Source: DHVE2 group archaeon
Lineage (GTDB): Archaea; Thermoplasmatota; Thermoplasmata; Thermoplasmatales; Aciduliprofundaceae
Reading direction: 5' to 3'
Assembly: GCA_027023265.1 (NCBI GenBank)
Contig: JALVVV010000054.1
Coordinates: 1-64,000, forward strand
Length of the DNA stretch: 64,000 nt
The translations under genes were made by a program, and so were the position numbers. The notes beneath the pieces were generated by a model. It was not told the DNA's origin, ran no database searches, and saw nothing but the letters and a program-made list of their open reading frames with translations. Positions 231 to 54,562 of this stretch are shown here, piece by piece. Positions within the stretch are counted from its first letter, which is position 1; every line of letters starts with the position of its first letter.

Positions 231-2318
231 TCACTTGAGGATTATCCTCGCATCCACTACCTTCAACCCACTTTCGTATACCATCACTGGATTCGCATCT
301 ACCTCTTTTATGTAGTCCCTGAGTTCCCAAACCAGCTGTGAAAGCCTGCTTATTGCCTCTGCTATTGCTTTAACATCTTTTGGCTTCTCTCCCCTGGCGC
401 CTTGGAGAACTTTGTAGCCCTTTATCTCGCTGATCATCTCCATTGATTCCTCCTCAGAGAACGGTGCTATGCGGAAAGTAACATCTTTCAGGATTTCTAC
501 GAATATACCTCCAAGTCCGAACATTACTGTTGGGCCAAACTGCGGGTCGTAAACGCTTCCTATTATTGTCTCGGTTCCCCATGGCTCCATGTGCTGCACG
601 TAAACTCCATGAATTTCCGCATTAGGATCATATTTCTTTGCATTTTCTATGATCTCCTTATATGCCTGCTTAACTTCTTCATCGCTGTTCAAATTCACCT
701 TGACACCACCGGCATCGCTCTTGTGAATTATCTGTGGTGAAACTATCTTCATAACCACGGGATACTCTACCTCATGCGCTATAGCCACGGCCTCTTCCTC
801 GGTTTTTGCCATCTTACCCTTTGGTACGGGCAATCCGTAGGCGGCAAATACCTGCTTTGCCTCTGGTTCAGTAAGAAGCTTTCTGCCGGAAGACAACGCG
901 TTCTTTATGATTTCTTCTGCCATCTCCCTGTTAACCTGGTAGGGCTTGAATTCTGCGTTTGTTTTCTCAAGATACCTGCCATAAGTTCTCAGCATGCCCA
1001 TCGCCCTGACCGCTGCATCAGGACTCTTATAGTACGGAATACCGTGCTCAATTAGCCATTCACCTGCCTTTATGCTTTTCTCTCCACCGGTGTAATTTAC
1101 AATAACAGGCTTGTTCACTCCAGCCTCGTCGATGGCTTTCTTTATGTTCTCTGAAATCTCAAGAGGATTTGTGAAAGAAGTCTCGCAGAAAAGAACCACA
1201 ACACCATCCACCCAATCATGCTTCAGGGCATCTCTTATTGAACCGTAATACTGCTGGGCATCAGCCATACCAGTAAGGTCCACAGGATTTTTGGGACTGC
1301 CAAATTCGGGCATGTGCTTTCTCATCAATTCCTTTAAATCCTCCGGAGCGTCTTTTATTGGTATGCCATACTTTTCAGCGGCGTCCGTTGCAAGCACACC
1401 CACACCGCCGCCATTTGTGATAATTACCAGATTGTCTCCCCTCATCGGCGGCTGAAGGGCAAGGGCCATGGTTCCGTCAAATAAAGCATCCAAGTTCTCT
1501 GCCCTCACAACGTGACCCTGCTTGAATGCAGCATCGTAAATCTTTGTGCTTCCTGCCAGGCTTCCTGTGTGAGACGCGGCGGCAGCAGCACCTCTCTGAG
1601 ACACACCCGCCTTGAGCGCTATGATAGGCTTCTTTGATTTTTTAGAGTTCTCCAGGAACTTGCGCCCATCTTTAACGCCTTCCATGTAAAGAGAGATAAC
1701 GTTTGTATCAGAATCCTCATTGAAATATTCTATCAAATCGCCAAAGTTGAGGTCTGCCATATTACCTATACTAATCATATGGGATATTCCCACCTTGTCG
1801 CTCCAAGTTCTCGCGTCCATTGCGATAAGGAGCGCCCCGCTCTGGGAGATTAACGCAGCGTTACCCGGATACGGGAGATACGGACCGAAAGACGCGTTTG
1901 CTTTCAGGGGGTTATTCATAATACCCACAACGTTGGGTCCAAGTATGCGCATTCCATACTTCCTGGCTATTTCCACAACCTGGTCTTCGAGGTCCTTGCG
2001 TCCAACCTCGCTGAATCCAGATGCAATAACCACAAGTCCTTTTGCACCCTTCTTGCCGCAATCTTCAGCTGCGGAAGGAACGTACTTTGCAGGAACCACT
2101 ATCAAAGCAATATCAATTTCATCGGGAATATCTAAAACGCTGTGATAACACTTCAGTCCGCGAATCTCATCTGCTTTTGGATTCACAGGGTATATTTTTC
2201 CTTCGTATCCAGATTCTAAAAGATTCTTGACGCACTGGTGTCCTATGGCTTTTGGATCTCTGCTCGCACCGACAATTGCTATACTTTTTGGTTTAAATAT
2301 TGGGTCTAATGGATGCAT
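231..2318 (-). CDS. Acetate/acyl-CoA synthetase (ADP-forming), fused alpha-beta (CoA-binding + ATP-grasp)
   Basis: MHPLDPIFKPKSIAIVGASRDPKAIGHQ CoA-binding N-terminus, ISQSGALL, and C-terminal ATP-grasp (VVMKIVSPQIIHKSDAGGVKVNL). The likely start is the internal Met before HPLDP rather than the ORF start at 2366. Confidence 0.9.
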   Translation of the reverse strand: MHPLDPIFKPKSIAIVGASRDPKAIGHQCVKNLLESGYEGKIYPVNPKADEIRGLKCYHSVLDIPDEIDIALIVVPAKYVPSAAEDCGKKGAKGLVVIASGFSEVGRKDLEDQVVEIARKYGMRILGPNVVGIMNNPLKANASFGPYLPYPGNAALISQSGALLIAMDARTWSDKVGISHMISIGNMADLNFGDLIEYFNEDSDTNVISLYMEGVKDGRKFLENSKKSKKPIIALKAGVSQRGAAAAASHTGSLAGSTKIYDAAFKQGHVVRAENLDALFDGTMALALQPPMRGDNLVIITNGGGVGVLATDAAEKYGIPIKDAPEDLKELMRKHMPEFGSPKNPVDLTGMADAQQYYGSIRDALKHDWVDGVVVLFCETSFTNPLEISENIKKAIDEAGVNKPVIVNYTGGEKSIKAGEWLIEHGIPYYKSPDAAVRAMGMLRTYGRYLEKTNAEFKPYQVNREMAEEIIKNALSSGRKLLTEPEAKQVFAAYGLPVPKGKMAKTEEEAVAIAHEVEYPVVMKIVSPQIIHKSDAGGVKVNLNSDEEVKQAYKEIIENAKKYDPNAEIHGVYVQHMEPWGTETIIGSVYDPQFGPTVMFGLGGIFVEILKDVTFRIAPFSEEESMEMISEIKGYKVLQGARGEKPKDVKAIAEAISRLSQLVWELRDYIKEVDANPVMVYESGLKVVDARIILK

Positions 2319-2474
2319 TTTATTACCTCCTTTATTGCTTCCTAAGGGGACATGGCAGCATTCCATAATAACTTTAATATTCGTCTAAAAACGAATTTAC
2401 AATTGGTGATGGTCGTTTTAAAAAAGATGCGGTAATTAAGAGAAAACATTAAATCGGAAAATAGAGATATCCAC

Positions 2475-2780
2475 GTGGCGAGAAATATGCTATCAAGAAT
2501 CCCTTTTGATATGAACGCACTGCGAATGTTAGGCAAAAAAGAGCCGGATGTTGAACTGATAAGGATAGGCATAATTGCAGAGCTCGATGCCATTAACCTA
2601 TACGAGCAACTTGCTGCACAGGCCGAAGACCCTCTGGTAAAAAAGGTATTTATGGATATCGCACAGGAAGAAAAGGAGCATTTCGGAGAGTTTATGGAGT
2701 TGCTCAAAAGATTTGACGGAGAAATCGTGGAAGCACTTGAGGATGGGGCAAACGAGGTTATGGATTTAGAGGAAGATTGA
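2475..2780 (+). CDS. Short ferritin-like protein resembling the encapsulin-associated ferritin (EncFtn) domain
   Basis: IIAELDAINLYEQLAAQAEDPLVKKVFMDIAQEEKEHFGEFMELLKRFD: E..Y / EExxH motifs. It resembles, from memory, the N-terminal domain of the Pyrococcus furiosus encapsulin fusion. Confidence 0.75.
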   Translation: MARNMLSRIPFDMNALRMLGKKEPDVELIRIGIIAELDAINLYEQLAAQAEDPLVKKVFMDIAQEEKEHFGEFMELLKRFDGEIVEALEDGANEVMDLEED

Positions 2781-2789
2781 GGTGATTAT

Positions 2790-3302
2790 ATGAATTTGGA
2801 AAAATACAATCTGGAAGAGCTACTGCTGATAGGGATAAAGAGCGAAATTGAAGCGGAAAAGGTGTACAGAGAAACTGCAAAAAAAGTCAATAATCCATTT
2901 TTGAAAAACAGGCTGGAAGCATTATCAAAGGAGGAAAACGCACACAAAGAAATATTAGAGAAAACTTACAGTAAAATGTTTCCGGGCAAGGAAATAATCA
3001 TACCCGAAAATCCGGATTTTTTACCTGAGTTTCCAGAGATAAAAATATTCAGAGAGCTCGGTACGACCACTGATGTGAGAAAGGTTCTTGAACAGGCAAT
3101 GAAAGCAGAGTTGGGTGCGAAGGAGTTCTATGAGAGTATCGCGAACATGGTTGATGATGACTACACAAAGAAGCTAATGCGTTATATGGCCAAAATAGAA
3201 GAGGGACACTACATGATACTGAAAAAAGAGTACGACGACATGGTGGAATTTGAGAGCATGATGAAAGATTTGGATTATGCGCAGTTTGACGCTCGATTTT
3301 AA
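2790..3302 (+). CDS. Rubrerythrin/ferritin-like diiron protein (no rubredoxin domain)
   Basis: Paired E..Y, EENAH, E..FYE and EEGHY motifs in a 170-aa four-helix protein. Confidence 0.8.
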   Translation: MNLEKYNLEELLLIGIKSEIEAEKVYRETAKKVNNPFLKNRLEALSKEENAHKEILEKTYSKMFPGKEIIIPENPDFLPEFPEIKIFRELGTTTDVRKVLEQAMKAELGAKEFYESIANMVDDDYTKKLMRYMAKIEEGHYMILKKEYDDMVEFESMMKDLDYAQFDARF

Positions 3303-3351
3303 TGGAGGAAAATATTTATCCTCCCTTGTATACACCTAACGGGGTGAAAAT

Positions 3352-4497
3352 ATGGTAGAACTGAAAGCGGTAGTGGTCAAGGAAGTAATGGTAAAAGACG
3401 TGGTATGTGTGCATCCATCGGATACCATATCAAAAGCAATCAGCAAGATGCAGGAGCACGGGTTTCACGAGTTACCTGTAGTGGACGATAAAGGCAATTT
3501 ACTTGGGATAATAAATTATAAAACGCTCATAAGGAGAAAAAGCATATCTCTATATTCCCACGTGGAAAATGTGATGATAAAGCCCCCTGTAGTATCTCCG
3601 GAAGACAACATAGTTGATGCTGTGGTAAAGATGTTAGATGGAGGATTCAGGTCCTTGCCCGTGGTAAAAAAAGGCAAGGTTGTGGGCATAATTTCCAGAA
3701 CAGATGTTATTAAACTCGTTCCGAGCATTCCTGACCTTGCAAATATCCCTGTGGAAGATGTTATGACTTCAGAGCCGTATGTGATTGACGAGAATGCCCC
3801 GGTGGACGCTGCAATAGAGCTCATGAAAAAAATTAGCGAGTTAAGTTTGCCGGTGGTTGATAGCAACAATCACCTAAGCGGTGTTGTTCACATGCGAGAA
3901 ATTTCTCGTGCTATATGGCGTGCAAAGGAAAGAGCAAGCCAGGGAGAGCTGGCAGGAGAGAAAGAGAAAAAGGTAGTGTACATAAAAGAGCTTATGAGTC
4001 CTCCTGTATATGTTGAAGAGGATTCAAAGTTAAAGGAAGCTGCTGAGAAGATGACCGAGTTTCATTCATCCATCTGCGTAGTAATAAACAAAGATAACGT
4101 GCCCATAGGAGTCATATCCCAGAGAGACGTTATGGAAGCAGTTGTCAGAAAAGGAGAAGCCGAGGGCGTGTTCGTGCAGATAACTGGCCTGGACATAGAT
4201 GATCCGGAGCCATACACGGTCATATACGATATGGTTGAAAGTTTCCTTAACAAAATAAACAAACTAAAAGATTTTAAACCCCAGCTTTTGGTGTTCCATG
4301 TGGAAGTTCATCACGTGACAGGCAATGAGATCAAGTACAGCGTCAGGGCAAGGTTCACCACTGACAGAAAGCTTTTCTTTGCAAAGAGCTATGACTGGAA
4401 TCTTTACAAGGCCTTCAAGGAAGTTCTTGAGATTTTGGAAAGAAATGTGAAAAAGGAGAGAGAAAAACTCCAGGAATTCAGAAAAGTCACTCTCTAA
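3352..4497 (+). CDS. CBS-domain protein (four CBS motifs) with C-terminal HPF/S30AE-like domain
   Basis: Four CBS-type segments (VMVKDVVCVHPSDTISKAI, VMIKPPVVSPEDNI, VMTSEPYVIDENAPV, LMSPPVYVEEDSKL), then a ~108-aa alpha/beta tail ending in LYKAFKEVLEILERNVKKEREKL. Confidence 0.8.
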   Translation: MVELKAVVVKEVMVKDVVCVHPSDTISKAISKMQEHGFHELPVVDDKGNLLGIINYKTLIRRKSISLYSHVENVMIKPPVVSPEDNIVDAVVKMLDGGFRSLPVVKKGKVVGIISRTDVIKLVPSIPDLANIPVEDVMTSEPYVIDENAPVDAAIELMKKISELSLPVVDSNNHLSGVVHMREISRAIWRAKERASQGELAGEKEKKVVYIKELMSPPVYVEEDSKLKEAAEKMTEFHSSICVVINKDNVPIGVISQRDVMEAVVRKGEAEGVFVQITGLDIDDPEPYTVIYDMVESFLNKINKLKDFKPQLLVFHVEVHHVTGNEIKYSVRARFTTDRKLFFAKSYDWNLYKAFKEVLEILERNVKKEREKLQEFRKVTL

Positions 4498-6103
4498 ATT
4501 TCTCTACCTTTTCAATATTTATTTCCGCACCCACTACAGGATATCCTATGTCAAACTTTTCCAGCACTTCTGGATGTATTTCTCCAAAGAAACCTATTTT
4601 CTCGCTTTTTACCACTATATTCGCACATCTTCCAGGTATAAAGCTGGGATGTTCAGAGGAAGTGACAAGATAATCAGTTATCCCCATATCCCCCAAAACA
4701 CGCTCAACTATGGATTTTATGTCCGTGAACCCCACGCGAGAAGCAACTATCAAAAACGCCAAATGCCTTTCAAGGGAGCTACCTCGAACATATCCCGTTT
4801 CAAATATCTTTTGAGGTAAATCACGATGCTTGTTCTTTTTGAGAATCTCCATCAGCGAGGGAATAAGCCAAGTTCTGAGAGTTTCGGTACCCTCGCTAAC
4901 TGGATTGGAAACAACCACAGAAGGCTCACGATTCAATTGCATCAGGTCGTATTCAGCTGACATGGAAACAAGGGTCAATGTCTTTACCTCCACAAAACCC
5001 AAGCCAATCATTGATAAACGGGGGATTTCTTCCCATCTCATGCCACGACCGCGTCTGTACTTATTTAATTTGCTCAACGGAATATTATCATAGCTGTAGC
5101 CCTTGGCAATATCTTCCACGATATCGATTTCATGAAGAATATCCTGCCTGTATGGAGGAACAGTAACTTTGAGGGAGTGCCCTTTAGAGATAGAAAAATA
5201 TCCCATTTTTTCCAGGGCTTTTATGATTTCCTCTTCGCTTATCTCAAAACCCAAGATTTTACGAGCATAATCAATATTCACATCCATCTCATAATATTTT
5301 AGCTCAGGAGTGTCTATTTTTAAATCACCGTAATCTATGTTTACCTTTTCTACCTCGGCACCGCGGTCAATGAACGCACAAACAACAATGTTTAGAGCGG
5401 ACAAAAGGGTGTTCAGGTCCGTACCTGTCATATCAATAAATATGTTTTTAGTATTCGGCGTAATCTGCGTTAACACTCCATTTATTACCGGTGGAAAAGA
5501 AACCACATTCCCCTCAGAATCAAGTATAATAGGATATTTCTCTTTATTTATCAATATGTTTCCATACTCCACTCCTTTGGGATGCTTTTCCAAAATCTCT
5601 TTAAGCGTCATCTCATGTTCAAACCCCAGGGGAACAAATGAAAAATTTTCATCCTTTGTGGTATATGTGAAAGGTCCCTTTACCTTGTCGTAATCGTGGA
5701 GCCCTATGGCCACCTTTTTTCTCTTTCTTCCCACGGTTATATGCAATTTTTCTTGAAAATCCATCATACTTTTTATCATCAATTCGTCCACATTAACATT
5801 CCTAACAACCGCCGCAACTATGTAAGGCCTAACATCTTTAACGTTAGGCTCAACCACTATTCGCTCAGCACCATCATTTACGGCATATTTTTTCTTTTCA
5901 CCCCTGCCAAGGTACTGCTTTATTGCCCTAACCACTCCTTCCACACTGTACAGATCAGGACGATCAGGAAAGAACTCCACCAAAATTTCCTCGCCACTGG
6001 CATCTTTGAGATCTGCACCTAACATGCGAACGTTCTCTACCAGCTCATCAACACTTACGCCAAGTCTTTCAAGCTCTTTTCTCTGAATTCTGATAACGGG
6101 CAT
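4487..6103 (-). CDS. pheT: Phenylalanyl-tRNA synthetase beta subunit
   Basis: MPVIRIQRKELERLGVSVDELVE...VEFFPDRPDLYSVEGVVRAIKQYLG and the B5/core domain layout of archaeal PheT. Confidence 0.93.
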   Translation of the reverse strand: MPVIRIQRKELERLGVSVDELVENVRMLGADLKDASGEEILVEFFPDRPDLYSVEGVVRAIKQYLGRGEKKKYAVNDGAERIVVEPNVKDVRPYIVAAVVRNVNVDELMIKSMMDFQEKLHITVGRKRKKVAIGLHDYDKVKGPFTYTTKDENFSFVPLGFEHEMTLKEILEKHPKGVEYGNILINKEKYPIILDSEGNVVSFPPVINGVLTQITPNTKNIFIDMTGTDLNTLLSALNIVVCAFIDRGAEVEKVNIDYGDLKIDTPELKYYEMDVNIDYARKILGFEISEEEIIKALEKMGYFSISKGHSLKVTVPPYRQDILHEIDIVEDIAKGYSYDNIPLSKLNKYRRGRGMRWEEIPRLSMIGLGFVEVKTLTLVSMSAEYDLMQLNREPSVVVSNPVSEGTETLRTWLIPSLMEILKKNKHRDLPQKIFETGYVRGSSLERHLAFLIVASRVGFTDIKSIVERVLGDMGITDYLVTSSEHPSFIPGRCANIVVKSEKIGFFGEIHPEVLEKFDIGYPVVGAEINIEKVEKFRE

Positions 6104-11835: not shown

Positions 11836-14800
11836 ATGGAAATTCGTAGTGTGGCTGACTTTCCCAGAGCGGAAGAAGAAATACTCAGATATTGGGAAGA
11901 TAAAAAAATTTTCGAAAAGGTCCGAGATAAAAACAGGGGCAAAAAGAGGTTTATATTTTTAGAAGGCCCGCCAACTGCAAATGGTATGCCACATATGGGG
12001 CACGCGCTCACCCGCTCCGTGAAGGACGTTTTTCTCAGGTACAAATCAATGACCGGACACGAGATATACCCGTGGATTGCCGGTTGGGACTGTCATGGTT
12101 TGCCCGTTGAGATTGAAGTTGAGAAGAAGCTTGGTATAAATTCCAAGAAGGAGATCGAAAAATTCGGAATAAAGAAGTTCAACAAATTGTGCCGTGAGAG
12201 TGTATTCAAGTACCGCGATGAATGGATTAAGATGTCCAAGCGGATAGGTTTCTGGATAGATTTTGAAGATGCATACGTGACTATGAAGGATTACTATATA
12301 GAGAGTGTGTGGTGGGCTCTTAAAAAGATTTACGATGAGGGATTGCTTGTAAAAGATTACAAAGTAGTACCGTACTGTCCCCGCTGCGGTACTCCGCTGA
12401 GCAGTCATGAGGTTGCACAGGGATACAAAATTAGAAAAGACCCCTCTGTTTATGTAAAATTCAAGGTCAAAGATGAGGATGCTTATTTTCTTGTATGGAC
12501 AACGACACCATGGACCCTGCCCTCAAACCTCCTTCTTGCAGTGGGAGAAGATATTGACTACGTTTTAGCGGAAAAGGATGGAATTAAGTACTACCTGGCA
12601 AAGGCAAGGTTGAAAGCTGTACTGGGTGATGCTAAAATTATCAGGCAGATGAAGGGTAAGGATATGAAGGGCATGAGATACGAGCAGCTGATGCCTTTTA
12701 TAAACGTGGAATACGACGCTTTCTACGTAACCACTGCGGATTTTGTAAGCACTGAGGACGGCACGGGCATAGTGCACATAGCGCCTGCGTTTGGAGAAGA
12801 CGATTATCATGTGTGCAAAAGGGAAGGGGTGCCATTAATCAAACCGGTTAATGAAGAGGGGAAATTCACAGCTACTCCTTGGAAAGGTATGTTCGTAAAG
12901 GACGCGGACCCTCTGATAATTAAGTGGTTGAAAGAGGAGGAAAAGCTGTTTAAGAAGGAAACTGTGGAGCACAGTTATCCGCACTGCTGGAGATGCGGCA
13001 CTCCTTTGCTATACTACGCTCTGGATACCTGGTACATTTTGATGAGTAAAAAGAGAGATGAGTTGATTGTAAATAACGAGACTGTAAACTGGAAGCCTGA
13101 GCACTTGAAACATGGAAGATTTGGCAATTTTCTTGAAGATATAAAGGACTGGGCACTATCAAGAAATCGCTACTGGGGAACACCTCTTCCAATATGGAAA
13201 TGCCCTGACGGTCATGTTTTCGTACCATCTGGAAAGGATGACCTATTAAAGCATGTCGAGGGCGATATTCCAGAAGATTTCGAGTTACACAGACCCTGGG
13301 TTGATGAGATTCACGTCAAATGCCCGGTATGTGGCAAGGAAATGAAAAGGGAGCCATATCTGATTGATGTTTGGTTTGATTCGGGGAGCGCACCATTCGC
13401 TCAGTTCCATTATCCGTACGAGAACCAGGATGATTTTAAAAATGCGTTTCCTGTTGATTTCATCACCGAAGGTATTGACCAGACACGTGGCTGGTTCTAC
13501 ACCCAGATGGCCATATCTACGCTTGTGTTCAACAAGGCACCCTATAAGAATGTGCTTACTCTCGGGTTAATACTTGACGAGGATGGAGAAAAGATGAGCA
13601 AGTCCAAGGGCAACGCCGTGGACCCGATGGATATTATGAACAAAGTCGGTGCTGATGCAGTAAGGATGTATCTTTACTCTTCTCCCGTTTGGAAAAGTCG
13701 TAGATTTTCCGAATCGCTTGTACGTGAATACATGCAGAAAACCATAGGTACTCTCTGGAACGTGGTTTTGTTTTTCAAGAAAAATGCGGAGTTGGATAAC
13801 TATCTTGGTGAATTTTTCGAAGTTAGAAACGAACTTGATAAATGGCTTCTTTCAAGAATCAATTCCACGGTAAAAGATGTTCGCATGCACTTGGATAACT
13901 ACGATGTGCACCTGGCCACGAGGTCTATTGAGAGGGCAATTGACGAGTTGAGTAACTGGTACGTTCGCAGGTCCCGTAGAAGGTTCTGGCGCGAGGAGAT
14001 GAGCGAGGATAAGAGAAGCGCTTACACATCACTATTCATTGCTCTTAAAACTCTATCTCTTGTGATGGCTCCTTTCACTCCATTCTTATCGGAGATAATA
14101 TACGGTGAGCTTTTTGGAGATAAGGAAAGCGTGCATCTTGAAGAGTATCCAGAGGTAAAAGAGGAGCTAATAGATGAAAATCTTGAAGAAGAGATGAACG
14201 TGGCCATAAAAATTGCAGAGGCGGGAAGACGCGCGAGGCAGCTTGCAAACGTAAAGCTCAGACAGCCCCTTGGCAAGATGATAGTTTCCTGCGAGGAAAA
14301 ATACGTGCCCATAGTGACTAAATTTAAGGATGTGCTCAGTGAAGAGATTAATGTAAAGGAGATTGAGATAGGAGACATGAGTGAACTTACAAATCTTGAA
14401 ATGAAGATTAACTATCGTGCTCTTGGACCCAAGCTAAAGGGTGATTTGAAAGAGGTGGTTAGAAAAATGAATGAAATGCCCGTCGCGGAAGTCAGAGAAA
14501 AAATAAGGAAGGGAGGGCTCGAGATAATGGGTTATACAATTACAGAGAATGACGTGGAGTTTTTCGAAAGGCCCAAGGAAGGCGTTCAGGCCATAAATGT
14601 GGAGGGCTTGCCCATTGTTATATATTTAGATACTACAGTGACGGAAGAGCTTAGAAAAGAGGGGCTTGCGAGAGAAATAATAAGACGGGTGCAAACCATG
14701 AGGAAAGATATGAACCTTGAGTACGATGCAAAGATAGTTACTAAATATTCGGGAGACAGTGGACTGGAAGATATCATGAGGAAATACGCGCGTCGCATAA

Positions 14801-14907
14801 TGGAAGAAACTCAGAGTATTGAACTTGAAAAGGGTGATGATGGAGAATACGGAAAAGAATGGGAAATAGATGGCAGAAAAATTAAAATATTCGTCTCCCG
14901 CGCCTGA
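11836..14907 (+). CDS. ileS: Isoleucyl-tRNA synthetase
   Basis: GPPTANGMPHMGHALTRSVKD, ITEGIDQTRGWFYTQ, KMSKSKGNAVDP. Confidence 0.95.
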   Translation: MEIRSVADFPRAEEEILRYWEDKKIFEKVRDKNRGKKRFIFLEGPPTANGMPHMGHALTRSVKDVFLRYKSMTGHEIYPWIAGWDCHGLPVEIEVEKKLGINSKKEIEKFGIKKFNKLCRESVFKYRDEWIKMSKRIGFWIDFEDAYVTMKDYYIESVWWALKKIYDEGLLVKDYKVVPYCPRCGTPLSSHEVAQGYKIRKDPSVYVKFKVKDEDAYFLVWTTTPWTLPSNLLLAVGEDIDYVLAEKDGIKYYLAKARLKAVLGDAKIIRQMKGKDMKGMRYEQLMPFINVEYDAFYVTTADFVSTEDGTGIVHIAPAFGEDDYHVCKREGVPLIKPVNEEGKFTATPWKGMFVKDADPLIIKWLKEEEKLFKKETVEHSYPHCWRCGTPLLYYALDTWYILMSKKRDELIVNNETVNWKPEHLKHGRFGNFLEDIKDWALSRNRYWGTPLPIWKCPDGHVFVPSGKDDLLKHVEGDIPEDFELHRPWVDEIHVKCPVCGKEMKREPYLIDVWFDSGSAPFAQFHYPYENQDDFKNAFPVDFITEGIDQTRGWFYTQMAISTLVFNKAPYKNVLTLGLILDEDGEKMSKSKGNAVDPMDIMNKVGADAVRMYLYSSPVWKSRRFSESLVREYMQKTIGTLWNVVLFFKKNAELDNYLGEFFEVRNELDKWLLSRINSTVKDVRMHLDNYDVHLATRSIERAIDELSNWYVRRSRRRFWREEMSEDKRSAYTSLFIALKTLSLVMAPFTPFLSEIIYGELFGDKESVHLEEYPEVKEELIDENLEEEMNVAIKIAEAGRRARQLANVKLRQPLGKMIVSCEEKYVPIVTKFKDVLSEEINVKEIEIGDMSELTNLEMKINYRALGPKLKGDLKEVVRKMNEMPVAEVREKIRKGGLEIMGYTITENDVEFFERPKEGVQAINVEGLPIVIYLDTTVTEELRKEGLAREIIRRVQTMRKDMNLEYDAKIVTKYSGDSGLEDIMRKYARRIMEETQSIELEKGDDGEYGKEWEIDGRKIKIFVSRA

Positions 14908-17900
14908 TGAATAGCATAAAAATGAAAATTAGGAGGAAAAGTGTCGCGGAAGATGTAAATTCCGGGACCTCTTCGGGCACATAAACCACGTAGTATCTTA
15001 CAACGTATGTGTATCCATTGAACGCTCTAACGTATATCCTGTGATATCCGCCTCCCAGCGATGACAAATTATACACCACATACCATCTATTTGTCCCGTT
15101 CACTTTAATGGGATTCTCGAAAGATGGGTCATCTATTGAAATCTCCACCTTGCTAATTGCGTCGTGATACTGGAATACTCTAACATGAAACTCGCTATTA
15201 TTATCCGGCTGCACATTGCCAGCAACAATTTCCTCTTTTCCATTGTTTGTCAAGTCTCCCGCATACACTGCCGACAACGTGCCCATGTCCGTTGCGTTTA
15301 AAGTATATAGCTCTTTGAAACGGGTACCGTTCCATTCAAGTACGTGTATGAAGTTAGTACCCACTATCAAATCCGTGATTCCATCAAAATTTATGTCTGC
15401 AGCGGCTATGGCGGTTAACACGGGCGACTCGTTACTCCATGTTTTGTTGTAAATTTCTTGGTACGCACTTCCATTCCATCTGAACACATAAATTTCAGGA
15501 CTGTCAAGCCCTATCGCTATCTCATCATTGCTTTTTCCATCAAAATTGCCAACGGCTATTCCAGATGCGTTTTCTGGAAAATTCTTGCATATGTAATGTG
15601 CAACCAGAGAATTATTATTCCATTGTAGTACAACTGCCTGATTCCCTGGCGTGGCAATAATTTCATCAATACCGTTTCCGTACAAGTCTGCCACGCTAAC
15701 CTCAGGAGCAGACTGGTTCTCGTAAGGGTCCTTCCACTCTGCCTTTTCTTTCCAGGTATTATTTACCAGATACAGCACAATTATTTCTGATGTGCCGTTA
15801 AGTGTTTTGAGAGAAAGTACCACTTCATTGATTCCATTCCCATCTATATTACCTATTGCACACCCTGTAAAATTAAAGGATGTGTTTTTGCCCCATATGT
15901 CTCCGATAATCCTAAATGCGCTACCGTTCCACTCAAAGGCCGAAAAATCGTATTTCCAGGCAACTGCAATATCCTTAATACCATCTCCGTTTAAATCCCC
16001 TATTGCGTAGCCTTCTGGATTATCTCCTTTTCCACTAGGGTCAGTTATGTTTCCTATTTCCGAGAAATTAGTGCCGTTCCATTCAAATACGCTTATAACC
16101 CCATCGTCTCCTCCAATTAACAGGTCATTTTTTCCGTCATTTGTTACGTCTCCTATTGCCTGTGCACCGTGTAAAACAGCGCTGCCGTAATTCATGTTCC
16201 ATATTTCGTCAAAATTTCCTGAAATTGGGTCTGATGCCAGTCCAGTTATGTTAACCTCTCCCTTAGCTTCACTGTTGTTAAGCGGTGTGAGCAAAGTTAC
16301 AGTGGTATTACTTTTGACGGTAACCTCCAAACTATCTGATACAGGGGATATGGCACCTCTTGAATCTATGGCACGAACGTTTACCATGTAAGTTCCCGGT
16401 TTGAGCCACTTATGAGCTAAATTCACCGTTTTCCCCGATGGTACGTAGGGTGTCACGGACACGTTTCCATCCCCCCAATTGAAAATATAAGCCACCGTAT
16501 CGTTGTCCGGATCAATGGTGTTGGTTGTGTATCTGTACCAGACTCCCGTTTCTCCTTCGTCCGGACCGTCAGGTGCAGATGGGGTTAGAGGAGCGTTATC
16601 CCCTGAGACCATCAGCCAGCTTATTATGTTATTCATTAACAGTGAGCCTGTAGTATTGTTGTTATTTTCTACGGCAACAAAAGAAAACGCCGTGAACACC
16701 GTTCTGAACACTCCCGAATTGTACCTTGATGCTGTAGCGTTCCCCGATGAAGAGTTTTTGAAAATTATGACTGCTGAGGAACTCACATTTATTTCGTCGT
16801 CGTAATTAGTTATCCCCTGGGGATATGTTAGATTAATTAATGAGAAGTCTCCGGATATCGGGTCATTTTTAACCCCACTCACTTGACTGTACCCTACATC
16901 ATTATTAACGTAAGTCACCTGCAGATACTCTTTTATAAATTCGTTGTTTATATACCCGTTCACACCATTGGTGAGGTCCCACAGAACGTCCTGAGAGCTT
17001 AGATACAACCTTCCCCCTGTCTTAAGAAAATACGTCAGGTTTTTTTGGTCTCCAGATGTTAGCGTGTTCCTGTATTCAGCACCAGTTTCCCATATAACAA
17101 TTTCGTAGTTCTCAAGTTCCTCAAAAGATGGAGAACCATTTAAAGATACGTTCCATACGTCATATTTGTAACCGCCACCATTAAGCGCATCTTCAAAATA
17201 TTCCTGAAAATTTGCACCTCCATCATCGTCTACCAGCAAAATAGGGGGTCTTATAGTTGTGGTTGTTACAATTTTTGCACTTTTTGATGAATTTCCCTCT
17301 GAAATCCCTGTTACTGTGATGTCTGCACGCTCCCCGGAAACTGCGTTCTCAGGTGATTTGACATACAAATATACCATGGTACCAGAATACGGCTGCAACG
17401 TTACGGAATAGGATGTCAGCTCAGCAGACCAGTTTTCAGGAGCGGTGATTTCCAAATCGTATGTATCCTCGTAAGTTCCAGTATTATTAACGAATATCTC
17501 ATAGCGGGCAACGTTTCCTCTCGAAATCTCGCTTTGGTTATCTTTGCAACTCATGTTTATAGCATAACCCATTACCGTGATGTTTTTCCAGGCTATGTTG
17601 TTACTTTCGTTGAGTTCCGCGATGCTCTTTGTAGAATCTGCATAAACGTATATTCTGTGTTTACCAGCATATCCAGAGGTGCTCCAAGATATGTTTTTAG
17701 TCACGTATTCCCCTTCAGTTATGTTTCCATAATTGACTGTGCGAATCATGTGCTCTTCATCAATTTTATCTACATAAAACGAAACGTTGACATTATATGA
17801 GTTGTTGTTTCCAGTGTTGTACACTGTGGCAGATATATTAATCATTTTTCCCTCTTCCGGAGTGGTGTTGCTGAGATGAATGTCAGAGGAGTTTATTACA

Positions 17901-20032
17901 AGGTCCGGTAAATCGGTTCTTTGAATCACGTTTATCACTATGCTGGCATATAGAGAGTATAGGTTTCCATCATATGCTCGTGCGAATATGTGGTGCTGTC
18001 CAAGGCTCAAATTGGAGAGATCCAGGGTGTAGTTCCATGATGCAGTTCCGTTTGCCGGAATCCAATTTCCCCTGTCTATCTTTACCTCAACCTCCTGCAC
18101 AGAGCCATCTGGGTCACTGGCGTTTCCTGATATTTTTATGGTTGCTGTTTCTGGAAAGCTGCTGTTATTAACGGGAGATTCTATTGAGCAGGATGGCGCC
18201 TCGTCATCATCGTTTGTTTTCAGGGTGTAAACCTGGTGAAGCATCTCACCCCATTCTGTTTCTTTAAATATGTAAAAAGAGGAATCTACCTGCGATTCGG
18301 AGTCAGTTTCGGCCATTATTATTTTTCTTGAAGAAGTATCATAATCGTAGAAATTTATGACGCTGTAACTAACGTTCTCTATTAATCTGTTTGCCCAGTA
18401 CCTTACCAGGGTATTGTTAACATGGGATAAAAGCTGTTTTGCAAAATCCCCCACATCTTTTCCGTTGCTCCAGTACTGGGAATCAGCAGATACCGTGTCG
18501 TTGAATGCTGCCCTTATTTCAGAGTTCTCTGTTCCTGCGTCCTTTCTTATTGCCTGCGCTAATTCATTGTAAGCTTCCATAAACCTGTAATCCCACCGCG
18601 TAACATTTATTGCAGCCATGGTTACAACGCACTGATGGTCGTTTTCGTCATCAACGTGCTCCACAAAGCTGTATGCGAACTGCTCCGGATTTTGATTGTA
18701 ATTTTCCGTTAAATTGGTTAGTATTGCGTTGTAGTCCCAGCCATCACTGCCTTCTGTGTGCTCGGAAGCCACGATTATATTTGCCGCTTCTTTGATTTGA
18801 TAATTGTCCGCACCAGCGTCCATCAGACACGCATCGTAGCCCCAGATATCTATGCTCCTTCCTATATTCTCTTTGATGTTATCCGCCGCTTCTTTGAGGT
18901 CTTCCAAACTCAGATGAGTTCCTGAGGTGTCATCCCACATTGCCCCGCTGTAGTCACCGCCATGGTCCCACAGGTCTAAAAAATAATACTCAGCTGGATA
19001 ATTTTTTACTGTCCATTCCACAAATTCTTCAAGGGTTTGGGGATCGCCCATGTCCACCTCCGAGCTCATCCATGGGGCGGAAGAGGATATATCATCGTAT
19101 CCCCCTGATTTTATCTTTATTAACTTTGAATCGCCATTGCCGTTTCTGTCCCAGAGAACTATTACATTTACCTCCCCGCTTGCAGATGCTTTATATCCAT
19201 TTTCCATTTCATCTATATCGCCGTAGCTTGATGAATTCAAGTTGTTATCCGCATCCATGTACACCATAAATGTCCATTTAGCCACTGCTCTTCTGTGAAA
19301 TGTTGCAAATTCTCTATTAATCGTATGATAGGTTTTCTTTTTAGGCTCCACTTTCTCACTGATTATTTGCCAGTCTGTGTAATCCATGGTGGTATAATTT
19401 TTGAAAATCCACGAATCTTCCGACTCTTCTTTTACGGAAATACCATGTGAAAATATTGAAATATTGCGGATCGGGAAATATCCTTTTTCTACCTCTTCAG
19501 GAGGGGAAATTTTTCCTTTTTCAACGTAAGCTATAAACAAGTTGTTTCGGGAGTTCCAAGCTACTATCACTTTTCCGTCGTAATATACCGCGGTAGTTGT
19601 TGATTCTTTATCGCTTATCTTTATCCCTTTCCATGTCCCGTTTTCTTCGTAATATAACCAAGGCCTGTGGTTTATTGATGAAGATACAAATACTCCCTTA
19701 TTTGATATGTACCAGTTTGCGTAACTTCCTCCAACGTACTCTTTTTTGCTCCAGTTTCCATTGTATTCTCTGAAGTAGGTGTTTATTTCACGGGATTGCG
19801 TTGCATACAGTAAGTATATTTTTCCCCCTTCCGAGACGTGCCGTTCCCACATCACGTTTTTATCTAAGATTTTTTGGTGCGTTGAGTTACCGTAATACAG
19901 TGTGGAGTTGCTTATCCATACTTTAAAATCATCATTGACTTTGATGCTGTTGCCGTGCATGAAATACATGCCGCTTCCAAATAACATTACGATTAAAATT
20001 CCAATAACAGCAACTTTATTTGCAGGACTCAT
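14882..20032 (-). CDS. Secreted clostripain-family (C11) peptidase with CARDB/PKD domains, FG-GAP repeats and C-terminal membrane anchor
   Basis: KWTFMVYMDADNNLN, FLDLWDHGG (His), IDIWGYDACLM (Cys); CARDB-like segment; PKD-like FNWGDGN; repeated GD(V/L)..DG..D(L/I)..G motifs; C-terminus PEFTSSATLFLLIFIFMLFIRRGRRIF. Confidence 0.87.
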   Translation of the reverse strand: MSPANKVAVIGILIVMLFGSGMYFMHGNSIKVNDDFKVWISNSTLYYGNSTHQKILDKNVMWERHVSEGGKIYLLYATQSREINTYFREYNGNWSKKEYVGGSYANWYISNKGVFVSSSINHRPWLYYEENGTWKGIKISDKESTTTAVYYDGKVIVAWNSRNNLFIAYVEKGKISPPEEVEKGYFPIRNISIFSHGISVKEESEDSWIFKNYTTMDYTDWQIISEKVEPKKKTYHTINREFATFHRRAVAKWTFMVYMDADNNLNSSSYGDIDEMENGYKASASGEVNVIVLWDRNGNGDSKLIKIKSGGYDDISSSAPWMSSEVDMGDPQTLEEFVEWTVKNYPAEYYFLDLWDHGGDYSGAMWDDTSGTHLSLEDLKEAADNIKENIGRSIDIWGYDACLMDAGADNYQIKEAANIIVASEHTEGSDGWDYNAILTNLTENYNQNPEQFAYSFVEHVDDENDHQCVVTMAAINVTRWDYRFMEAYNELAQAIRKDAGTENSEIRAAFNDTVSADSQYWSNGKDVGDFAKQLLSHVNNTLVRYWANRLIENVSYSVINFYDYDTSSRKIIMAETDSESQVDSSFYIFKETEWGEMLHQVYTLKTNDDDEAPSCSIESPVNNSSFPETATIKISGNASDPDGSVQEVEVKIDRGNWIPANGTASWNYTLDLSNLSLGQHHIFARAYDGNLYSLYASIVINVIQRTDLPDLVINSSDIHLSNTTPEEGKMINISATVYNTGNNNSYNVNVSFYVDKIDEEHMIRTVNYGNITEGEYVTKNISWSTSGYAGKHRIYVYADSTKSIAELNESNNIAWKNITVMGYAINMSCKDNQSEISRGNVARYEIFVNNTGTYEDTYDLEITAPENWSAELTSYSVTLQPYSGTMVYLYVKSPENAVSGERADITVTGISEGNSSKSAKIVTTTTIRPPILLVDDDGGANFQEYFEDALNGGGYKYDVWNVSLNGSPSFEELENYEIVIWETGAEYRNTLTSGDQKNLTYFLKTGGRLYLSSQDVLWDLTNGVNGYINNEFIKEYLQVTYVNNDVGYSQVSGVKNDPISGDFSLINLTYPQGITNYDDEINVSSSAVIIFKNSSSGNATASRYNSGVFRTVFTAFSFVAVENNNNTTGSLLMNNIISWLMVSGDNAPLTPSAPDGPDEGETGVWYRYTTNTIDPDNDTVAYIFNWGDGNVSVTPYVPSGKTVNLAHKWLKPGTYMVNVRAIDSRGAISPVSDSLEVTVKSNTTVTLLTPLNNSEAKGEVNITGLASDPISGNFDEIWNMNYGSAVLHGAQAIGDVTNDGKNDLLIGGDDGVISVFEWNGTNFSEIGNITDPSGKGDNPEGYAIGDLNGDGIKDIAVAWKYDFSAFEWNGSAFRIIGDIWGKNTSFNFTGCAIGNIDGNGINEVVLSLKTLNGTSEIIVLYLVNNTWKEKAEWKDPYENQSAPEVSVADLYGNGIDEIIATPGNQAVVLQWNNNSLVAHYICKNFPENASGIAVGNFDGKSNDEIAIGLDSPEIYVFRWNGSAYQEIYNKTWSNESPVLTAIAAADINFDGITDLIVGTNFIHVLEWNGTRFKELYTLNATDMGTLSAVYAGDLTNNGKEEIVAGNVQPDNNSEFHVRVFQYHDAISKVEISIDDPSFENPIKVNGTNRWYVVYNLSSLGGGYHRIYVRAFNGYTYVVRYYVVYVPEEVPEFTSSATLFLLIFIFMLFIRRGRRIF

Positions 20033-50996: not shown

Positions 50997-51070
50997 GCCG
51001 CCGTAGCTTAGTAGGCTGGAGCGGCCGGCTGTTAACCGGCAGGTCCCAGGTTCGAATCCTGGCGGCGGCG
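50997..51070 (+). tRNA. tRNA-Asn (GTT)
   Basis: Cloverleaf: GCCGCCG/CGGCGGC acceptor, GCCGG-CTGTTAA-CCGGC anticodon arm, CCAGG-TTCGAAT-CCTGG T arm, discriminator G. Confidence 0.97.
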
Positions 51071-51184
51071 CTGCAATGTTTTCACATATTTTGTATCACA
51101 ATAAAGTTCTTGCAAAGTAAAAATAAAATCAACGATAAGTACACATAACAAATTAAAAATAAAACAAAAAATAGGTGTTAAAAA

Positions 51185-54100
51185 TCAGCTCAACAGCCAT
51201 GACACAATATTGTACATCAATGTAGCACCTGTATCTGAGTCATATTTCTCTACTGCTTCGAATGAAAACGGTGTAAACACTGTCTTGAAGTTGCCATTGG
51301 AATAGCTAACTCCGGCATAATAGCCTGTGTAAGGATCCACAAATATTCCGTGTGCACCGCTCTCAACAGTAATATCATCTGCATAGTTAGTATATGGATA
51401 ATCAAAGTACACTGTACCCAAATCACCAGTAATTGGATCTCCGCTCACACCATATACCTCATCGTAGGAAACATCGTTTATCACACCGCTAACACCAAGA
51501 TAGTCATTGACAAATGTATTGTATATCGTTCCATCATTTCCTCCAGAGAGATCCCACAATATATCTTGACCGGATAGATACAACCTACCTCCATTATCCA
51601 AGTACTCCATCAAGTTCTGTTGATCCTCCGGGGTAATTGTATTTTGATAAGCATATCCCGTATCCCAGATAACCACCGCATAATCAGACAAATCACTATA
51701 TGACGGTGCATAACCAACCTGGTAAACATCCCACTCGTACACCTCGTATTCGTCAGTAAGTCCTGAATCAATTAATGCCTGCTCGAAATATTTGCTGTAC
51801 GGGCTGCCTTCATCATCTGCAACAAACAGTATCTTGATACTCTGAGTTGTAGAGGACGCATGAGGTGTAGCACTCACTTCGTTACTCTTCTCGCTTTCAC
51901 CTACAGAATTTACCGCAGTAACATAGTAATAGTAGGTCTGGCCATTAGTCACAGATGTGTCATTGTAAGCAAGAGTTGTTCCACTTACAGATGTAAGTAA
52001 GCTTTCTCCCCCGGAGCTCGTTCCTCTGTATATATTGTATCCTGTTATGTTAGCACCACCATTACTATTTGGTTCACTCCAAGTGAGCATTACATATCCA
52101 TCTCCGGCGCTTGCATAAAGATTTAATGGTGCACTAGGAACGGTTGGATTGTTATTACCTGTACCTGTTCCATTTCCACCTGTGCTATTGCTCCCTCCAT
52201 TGCCAGTACCACCTGTGTTATTTCCACTGCTACCACCAGAACCACTACCGCTTGAACCACCACTACCTCCTGTTCCATTGCCGGCAGTGCCATTATTACC
52301 AGAGCTTCCAGAGCCAGAGCCGCTGCCACTTCCACCGCTGGAGCCACCATTAACGGTAAGCGTCAGGGTCACGGAATTCGTGAGATTGCCCCAGTGCCCG
52401 GTGGTGTGGTTGTACGTGTACCCGGTCACGGTAAGCGTGTATGTGCCTCCAGGTGTGCTGCTGCTCGTGTGTATGCTCAACGTGAATCCTGCCGTGGCTC
52501 CGTCTCCCGCAGGATGCACGTAATTTGTGGACGTGCTGTATGTAGCACCGCTGGGCAATCCACTCACCGTGAAATGCCCTACCTCCGTGGTCCAGTCATA
52601 CGGAAACTCCACGTTTATGTAATAACTTGCAGTAGCTCCTGCGCTAACGCTCGCACTGCTACTGCTCGCGCTCATCTTGAACCCGATATCGTGTATGAAC
52701 TCCCACGCATTTATCACTCCCCAGCCACTTGCCTGATCCCAGCCAGTTCCGGCAGAACCTGCGCTACCCGTGGCACCTTGAGTAACATCGTAGAATGGTG
52801 GACTATTGCTGTACTTTCCATTATGATAGTAATCATATCCGAGCTCATAAATTGTAGGATCCAAAAATCCGAGACCATGGTTTGATACGCCATATTTCAC
52901 TCCAATGTAAGCATCCATCATGGCTATCATTCCAGCAGTTACCGGACAGGCCACGGATGTTCCCGCAACAGCACCCCACTTAGTATTTCCCTGTCCATCA
53001 CTTATGTAAACAAGAGTATGATTTCCCATTGCACTTACATCAGCGGTTACCCTTCCACTGTATGTTCCAATATATTGTTTCTGCCATGATGGCTCAGGAT
53101 AGGCGGAACTCACACCGCTCTGTGTACCCCAGTGGTCACCGCGCGAGTTAGTGCTGCTGGAATCGTACCATACAATCTCATTGCTTCTTGGATTCGCCAA
53201 ATTTGTGTTGTAACCCATTGTTGCAGCATCTGTTAGCGAGGTCAAATCCTGCCCATTTGGATAGGGTGTAGTGCCACCCACAGCCACGACTCCGAATGTA
53301 TCCTGGGCATCTGTAGAAGGATAGCTTGGAGAAGTAGTATCCCCATCATCACCACTGCTGGCCAACACTGTCACACCCATCGCATTTAATGCCTTTATAT
53401 CGTTATCAGTAGCAGCAGAACCCTGTGCATCACCACCGCCCCAAGAATTGCTCACAGCAACGAGTCTTGGAGAGGAAACCTGAGCAAGAGAGTTGAGTAT
53501 GTAGTTGTACTCGTTATCTGGGAAATTGTTCTCTGCAGGACTTCCTTGACTGGTTCCAGGCCCGTAAACACAGTATGTATCTACACCTGGTGCAACTGTT
53601 CCCACCATCTCTAAATCAAGCTCATTCTCTCCTGAGACCTGGCCATCTGTGTTACTCCCAGGAGGTGTTGTTCCAGCCATACCATGAGAGTGCACCGTAG
53701 ACATAACACCTAAATTCTGTATCCACTGTGGTATCACGTGCTTGTAATAATACTCTACCGCGTTAGGGTCAAAGGGCGCAGAATTAGCCCCTTCCCACAA
53801 CACAGTTGCAACCCTCAATCCTGTGGCAAAGATATGCTTTGAGCTTGGCGCCCCAGTTGCAGAGTCGTTATACAACTCGTAAACATGATACATCCTTGCA
53901 ACATCTGCACCGCTCAGGTAATCAATACCACTGCTCGCGTGGAAATAATTCAAGTGGAATTTCGTGGCATTGTCCAGCCCGCTAATTCCATATATGTACG
54001 GGGCAAACTTTGCTGGTATCTTAGGCGCACTCATTGGCGCAAAGTACGTGCTCTTTAACTCTGGATTATTGCTTTTGTACACTCCAAACTGCACATTTAG

Positions 54101-54562
54101 TAGCTTGCTTATCTTCCCTATCGTATCGTGTATAGTTATTGCATTCCTCAAATTATAAGTGTACGCCACATTTATATTATTATCATGAAGCCACTCAAGC
54201 ATCCCAGCATATATCTTGCCAGACGGAGCAAAATTTGCTTTAAACTCCTTGTAATTCATATAATGATGATACATCGGTGAACGCACATCGTTTACCTCTC
54301 CCAAAAACTTGTTGAGCTCGTCCTCATGACTCCATTTCAGCACGAATGTGAGCCATATCTCCTGGTTCGGATTCGCCTTCCCTATGTACGTGCCTTCCTT
54401 GGTTAACTCTGACCTGTATCCATTCGTGACCGGAACCTTCTCGTTGCCAGCCAGCCCTGATAAAAATCCAAAGTACAATCCTCCGGCCACTACCACCACC
54501 ACTATTGCAAGCACCATTACTTTTTTCCATCCTATTTTCACATTCATTTTTATCACCACCAT
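51185..54562 (-). CDS. Large secreted S53 (sedolisin/kumamolisin-like) peptidase with Fn3 and C-terminal accessory domain
   Basis: Signal/TM N-terminus; pro-kumamolisin-like prodomain; GENELDLEMVGTVAPG (E..D); VSNSWGG; GAVAGTSVACPVTAG (catalytic Ser); Gly/Ser/Asn linker; Fn3 PSAPLNLYASAGDGYVMLTWSEP; C-terminal ~210-aa domain. Confidence 0.9.
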   Translation of the reverse strand: MVVIKMNVKIGWKKVMVLAIVVVVVAGGLYFGFLSGLAGNEKVPVTNGYRSELTKEGTYIGKANPNQEIWLTFVLKWSHEDELNKFLGEVNDVRSPMYHHYMNYKEFKANFAPSGKIYAGMLEWLHDNNINVAYTYNLRNAITIHDTIGKISKLLNVQFGVYKSNNPELKSTYFAPMSAPKIPAKFAPYIYGISGLDNATKFHLNYFHASSGIDYLSGADVARMYHVYELYNDSATGAPSSKHIFATGLRVATVLWEGANSAPFDPNAVEYYYKHVIPQWIQNLGVMSTVHSHGMAGTTPPGSNTDGQVSGENELDLEMVGTVAPGVDTYCVYGPGTSQGSPAENNFPDNEYNYILNSLAQVSSPRLVAVSNSWGGGDAQGSAATDNDIKALNAMGVTVLASSGDDGDTTSPSYPSTDAQDTFGVVAVGGTTPYPNGQDLTSLTDAATMGYNTNLANPRSNEIVWYDSSSTNSRGDHWGTQSGVSSAYPEPSWQKQYIGTYSGRVTADVSAMGNHTLVYISDGQGNTKWGAVAGTSVACPVTAGMIAMMDAYIGVKYGVSNHGLGFLDPTIYELGYDYYHNGKYSNSPPFYDVTQGATGSAGSAGTGWDQASGWGVINAWEFIHDIGFKMSASSSSASVSAGATASYYINVEFPYDWTTEVGHFTVSGLPSGATYSTSTNYVHPAGDGATAGFTLSIHTSSSTPGGTYTLTVTGYTYNHTTGHWGNLTNSVTLTLTVNGGSSGGSGSGSGSGSSGNNGTAGNGTGGSGGSSGSGSGGSSGNNTGGTGNGGSNSTGGNGTGTGNNNPTVPSAPLNLYASAGDGYVMLTWSEPNSNGGANITGYNIYRGTSSGGESLLTSVSGTTLAYNDTSVTNGQTYYYYVTAVNSVGESEKSNEVSATPHASSTTQSIKILFVADDEGSPYSKYFEQALIDSGLTDEYEVYEWDVYQVGYAPSYSDLSDYAVVIWDTGYAYQNTITPEDQQNLMEYLDNGGRLYLSGQDILWDLSGGNDGTIYNTFVNDYLGVSGVINDVSYDEVYGVSGDPITGDLGTVYFDYPYTNYADDITVESGAHGIFVDPYTGYYAGVSYSNGNFKTVFTPFSFEAVEKYDSDTGATLMYNIVSWLLS

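Follow-up and report, generated by a model that had tools for sequence, protein, structure and literature searches.

Several described protein domains are alike in fold to the accessory domain reported here, which forms the last 222 residues of a secreted archaeal protease and measures about 215 residues in general. The trimerisation (GATase1-like) domain of GH42 and GH164 enzymes is likewise accessory to a multi-domain hydrolase (PMC7105311). However, it shares only 11-16% identity with the present domain and belongs to glycosidases, in which it packs rigidly into a trimer (PMC7105311), whereas the accessory domain is borne by proteases. ThuA (PF06283) and the ThuA-like structures 4pxy and 1t0b also show the fold (TM 0.58-0.65, E ~1e-7 to 7e-7), together with a weak sequence likeness in 5/34 copies (best E 0.003), but ThuA proteins are single-domain, unlike the multi-domain hosts of the accessory domain. 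The GIFT domain of IFT52 and GldG (5fmr; PF23355, PF09822) is alike in fold (TM 0.67, E 2.3e-8) at 15% identity, yet it is found in intraflagellar-transport or membrane-complex proteins, and sugar binding has only been proposed for it (PMC7226087). The best structural match of all is STM3548 of Salmonella (2gk3, E 9.9e-9). At the sequence level, DUF4159 (PF13709) gives weak profile matches in 8/34 members (13.1 bits for the window copy vs a gathering score of 25.9), and the best PDB sequence-profile match, covering the first half of the domain, is the C-terminal domain of the N,N-dimethylformamidase large subunit (PF20254, 6lvb; E 0.019, not significant), which belongs to an amidohydrolase, unlike the accessory domain. 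No relevant account of secreted proteases bearing a GATase1-like domain emerged from literature searches.

The window, i.e., the whole stretch of 64,000 nucleotides analysed from a DHVE2 group archaeon, carries two host genes, both on the minus strand. The first (51185-54562) encodes an S53 (sedolisin/kumamolisin-type) protease of 1125 aa, which comprises, in order, an N-terminal hydrophobic segment, a Pro-kuma_activ prodomain (residues 58-198, E 2.8e-24 in a profile search), the S53 catalytic part, an Ig-like stretch, a linker, an fn3 domain and the accessory domain. The linker (52148-52348, minus strand; residues 739-805) consists of 67 Gly/Ser/Asn/Thr-rich residues, with G/S/N/T reaching 98% over 60 residues, and separates the catalytic/Ig part from the fn3-domain tail. 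The fn3 domain (51869-52135, minus strand; residues 810-898; PF00041 E 1.3e-6, above gathering) is the immediate N-terminal neighbour of the accessory domain (51188-51853, minus strand; residues 904-1125), which in turn reaches right up to the stop codon at 51185-51187. Past this stop, by about 115 bp and on the opposite strand, lies a tRNA-Asn (GTT) gene (50997-51071, plus strand). The second host gene (14882-20032, minus strand; 1716 aa) encodes a C11 (clostripain-family) protease with the order C11, Big_7, CARDB, accessory domain (16607-17263, minus strand; residues 924-1142), PKD, FG-GAP repeats and a C-terminal hydrophobic segment followed by RRGRR. Its end overlaps by 26 bp, tail to tail, with a plus-strand ORF (11836-14907) that resembles isoleucyl-tRNA synthetase (HGLPVE, KMSKSKGN).

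The initial annotation held that one accessory module sits on two mechanistically unrelated secreted proteases, and the peptidase hallmarks of both bear this out. The S53 protein has the prodomain, the E-x-x-x-D motif (ENELD), the GTSxxxP serine (GTSVACP) and the calcium-site motif (DVTxG...GWD) by which Peptidase S53 is recognised, and it matches the kumamolisin structure 1t1e with E 7.7e-13. The C11 protein scores 129.2 bits against Peptidase_C11 (PF03415; cut-off 25.8, E 3.7e-37) and contains the His/Cys motifs DHGG and DACLM. A direct BLASTP comparison of the two accessory domains gave 47% identity over 225 columns (187 bits, E 9e-65), an E-value that excludes chance similarity and confirms, from the sequences, that the two are homologous; the extent first given for the S53 copy, 51185-51846, also lies within a few bases of the present one. 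Both protease copies are thus real, but two is an undercount, as the genome (1.64 Mb) holds seven. The other five comprise two copies in an S53-type gene that is cut off where the contig named C11 ends, two in a kelch/fn3 protein of 1244 residues and one in a truncated ORF on contig C57. The gene of this kelch/fn3 protein lies at 2215-5946 (minus strand) of locus L036 and its two copies are C-terminal, and the N-terminal region of the same protein matches ABC_transp_aux/IFT52_GIFT/DUF4350, apparently as a second GATase1-like domain of another family.

The PDB sequence searches returned no significant match to the accessory domain, so that a comparison of folds was needed. An AlphaFold2 model built from an 87-row alignment of window and fetched sequences (pLDDT 96.9, pTM 0.94) was compared with the PDB by Foldseek, which gave 154 matches at E<=0.001 with TM mostly 0.5-0.67, led by STM3548, GH42 enzymes, the IFT52 N-terminal domain, ThuA-like proteins, GH164 and gamma-glutamyl peptidase. 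The domain is therefore confidently predicted to adopt a class I glutamine-amidotransferase-like fold (GATase1/flavodoxin-like alpha/beta), as had been guessed initially from the sequence. None of the single copies reached the cut-off of any Pfam or NCBIfam model. ThuA PF06283 came to best E 0.0029 in 5/34 copies without a single domain attaining its gathering score, although in a two-copy protein the total was 36.4 vs 33.4 bits with every single stretch below. The gathering scores of DUF4159 PF13709, GLMA_2nd PF22369 and DUF4350 PF14258 were likewise not reached, and the GIFT domain gave no profile match over the accessory domain in alignment A1, its likeness being structural only. The weak Pfam matches common to most members were to GLMA_2nd, DUF4159 and ThuA, with a lone DMFA2_C match, all of which we take to be GATase1-like families; NCBIfam matches to 'vsr' and 'dnaG' were taken as chance. 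As judged by Pfam and NCBIfam, the accessory domain is a distinct family of a known superfamily, whose fold SUPERFAMILY or CATH may already assign.

The former active site was examined in 63 sequences whose collection did not rely on the QD-containing search pattern (the pattern-free set). A Cys at the nucleophile-elbow positions 95-97 was found in 0/63 of these, and the S53 and C11 copies in the window contain no Cys at all; amidotransferase-type catalysis is thus unlikely, because the elbow Cys is absent throughout the pattern-free set. Other positions are well conserved in the same 63 sequences, i.e., D12-D14 (81-83%), W63 (97%), G66 (78%), Q96 (73%), D97 (84%) and E199 (62%), as well as G88-G89. 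They fall in a DDD motif that follows beta-1, a W-x-T-G motif closing beta-3, an S-G/S-Q-D motif at what was the nucleophile elbow, and a conserved FE near the C-terminus of the domain. The full conservation of Q96, D97 and G89 in alignment A4 was rejected as evidence, since the collection pattern itself contained these residues. In the AlphaFold2 model, the conserved positions lie at the C-terminal ends of strands 1, 3 and 4, and further ones start a helix near the C-terminus. The C-terminal ends of the strands are the ligand edge of the GATase1-like fold, which suggests, from the topology alone, a putative binding pocket.

Beyond the window, the domain was found in 43/296 genomes and 31/138 genera of a phylum sample. 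A scan of the GTDB collection with the pattern GG[RAK]L[YFW][LI][STI][SG]QD gave 215 confirmed stretches, from which 80 loci were kept, spanning Thermoplasmatota, Asgard archaea, Chloroflexota, Planctomycetota, Zixibacteria, Gemmatimonadota, Ignavibacteriota and others; no relative was found in the viral contigs searched. Within the genus and the archaeal family, sampled through two genomes that each form a single contig (G011, G013) and through MAGs whose titles read DHVE2 group archaeon or Aciduliprofundum sp., the hosts are S53, C11, S8, kelch, fn3-array and MG2/Big proteins. In the MAGs of the genus, many copies stand at contig ends that fall just before the domain (L004, L009, L010, L025, L026, L027, L028 and others), which looks as if a repeated upstream sequence had broken the assemblies. 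Among 51 host proteins from outside the family, Pfam assigned 30 to S8, 4 to C25, 2 to M6 and 1 each to C11, M1 and M14. By per-protein tables and motifs, about 38 of the 51 have a catalytic peptidase domain, with six families represented, and two further hosts have a C25 propeptide only. With S53 added, the peptidase hosts amount to seven families of serine, cysteine and metallo types, which stand beside non-protease hosts such as kelch, BNR/sortilin, Omp28-like and PKD/fn3-array proteins. The predominance of proteases is descriptive, since hosts were counted without a control set and many of the S8 hosts are orthologous proteins from Chloroflexota, each bearing the domain twice. The position and copy number of the domain vary among these multi-domain secreted proteins, in which it is interleaved with fn3 and also neighbours CARDB, PKD and Big, domains typical of secreted adhesive proteins. 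The sharing between S53 and C11 hence stands, but a scope of two proteases was too narrow; the module is a general swappable domain of secreted proteins.

This swapping can be followed within the archaeal family. Between its genera, S53 catalytic parts are 74-81% identical vs 43-68% for the C-terminal domains, and such faster divergence is expected of an accessory part. Within the window's genome, the S53 gene shares a block of 508 nt at 97.2% identity with the S53-type gene on the contig named C11 (window 52182-52689, minus strand, against 14154-14661 of L167), and this close match breaks off abruptly within the Gly/Ser linker, where identity falls to ~65%. Neither the tails nor the flanking genes of the two loci agree; beside the second lie TldD/PmbA-like genes and a seryl-tRNA synthetase-like ORF (read from translations). 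We do not regard this contig as a strain variant of the window locus, as its flanking genes differ and have no match to the window. The block likely records a recent recombination or gene conversion event, with the linker as the likely breakpoint of tail exchange, though it may instead have arisen from misassembly at the contig end. A third S53 gene (within G000:C18 128000-136500; an ORF of 1418 aa, 69% identical) has a CARDB-like tail that carries a hydrophobic anchor at its C-terminus, and it lacks the accessory domain.

A domain-fn3-domain cassette is common to the kelch protein and the two-copy S53 proteins. In the tree, first copies cluster together (90/80) and second copies do the same (100/99), with those of the kelch protein placed inside the S53-type ones. 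The data reject a tree in which all S53 and unassigned copies are kept apart from kelch, C11 and fn3-array copies (p 8e-71). Nor is either kelch copy most closely related to the other (p 1e-4); polyphyly of the C11-borne copies was unsupported (p 0.2). A first test of an S53-borne clade (p 1.8e-72), like variants of it, is disregarded here as unfair, since many end-truncated copies may be S53-borne; the more generous test given above takes its place. Accessory tails are thus exchanged between genes in this family.

Homology, the confidently predicted fold, the absence of the catalytic cysteine, the spread over hosts and the exchange of tails are shown here, and they point to a probably non-catalytic, exchangeable module of large secreted proteins, above all of exoproteases. 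That this module tethers the protease to its substrate or to a matrix is the reading we favour, at about an even chance of being right. In the S53 protein, the fn3 and accessory domains would hang on the 67-residue flexible Gly/Ser linker behind the catalytic part, much as a cellulase carries its carbohydrate-binding module. The domain would hold the protease on the substrate or on an extracellular or cell-surface matrix, proteinaceous or glycan, and binding would occur via the putative pocket at the C-terminal edge of the sheet, where the conserved residues sit. The pocket and the binding role are both inferred, and substrate binding was among the roles proposed initially. Of the related folds, the GIFT domain with its proposed sugar binding would fit this reading, but the accessory domain could be assigned to no characterised binding family. 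A bolder version, which we hold only tentatively and do not expect to be correct, is that this unnamed GATase1-derived family was recruited as a dedicated exosite by seven exoprotease families, with the former amidotransferase site remodelled into an acidic pocket (D-D-D, Q-D, E) for a ligand or Ca2+, in which substrate is captured.

Several other roles were weighed against tethering. The same fold family includes gamma-glutamyl peptidase, and acidic residues are conserved at the active-site edge, both of which would fit an enzyme that is still active as an amidotransferase, peptidase or metal-dependent hydrolase; given the missing elbow Cys in the pattern-free sequences and the lack of any Cys in the window copies, we consider this extremely improbable. 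A structural role in oligomerisation, in which the domain packs protease chains into dimers or trimers, draws on the Foldseek matches to GH42 and GH164 enzymes (E 1e-8 to 7e-7) and on the fact that the corresponding domain of Bs164 and GH42 is a trimerisation domain (PMC7105311). However, the likeness is at the level of the fold only, the GH42 interface includes the catalytic domain, which here differs among hosts, and tandem copies per chain together with a flexible linker suit tethering better than a rigid trimer, making oligomerisation rather unlikely. Much the same weight is given to a spacer or stabilising domain without a specific ligand, comparable to fn3, PKD or Ig-like repeats. The variable position and copy number, the interleaving with fn3 and the faster evolution relative to the catalytic domain are what such a spacer would show, but the conserved polar residues D12-D14, W63, T65-G66, Q96-D97 and E199 at the pocket edge exceed its needs; conservation of Q96 and D97 in alignment A4 is partly by construction, yet it persists at 73% and 84% in the pattern-free set.

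Retention or anchoring at the archaeal cell surface, another role put forward initially, was suggested by the domain forming the extreme C-terminus of several proteins of the family, where S53, kelch and other tails share the exact end ...SWLLS or SWLAS. No conserved sorting motif follows the domain, though, and in C11 and S8 proteins it lies within the chain; some of these proteins carry a C-terminal anchor of their own, as the window's C11 protein does with its hydrophobic segment and RRGRR; moreover, the paralogous S53 protein that lacks the domain uses a hydrophobic anchor of its own. Anchoring is accordingly disfavoured and appears very unlikely. Acid stability, also envisaged at first, is disfavoured as a general role as well, because the domain is no less acidic in Chloroflexota, Planctomycetota and others than in the Aciduliprofundum group.

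Exoproteases drive protein breakdown at vents and in sediments, and their non-catalytic parts are mostly unnamed. The accessory family described here is real and widespread, and as an unnamed family of known fold it is of an ordinary kind, but its set of protease hosts is broad and interesting. Seven peptidase families sharing a domain of known fold that has no Pfam or NCBIfam model make a concrete target for assay, and one binding assay on this domain would bear on hundreds of secreted proteases. If the exosite reading were true, a former amidotransferase site would capture protein or glycoprotein substrates in both archaea and bacteria. The linker-bounded exchange seen in one archaeal genome, in turn, illustrates how exoproteases may acquire new tails.
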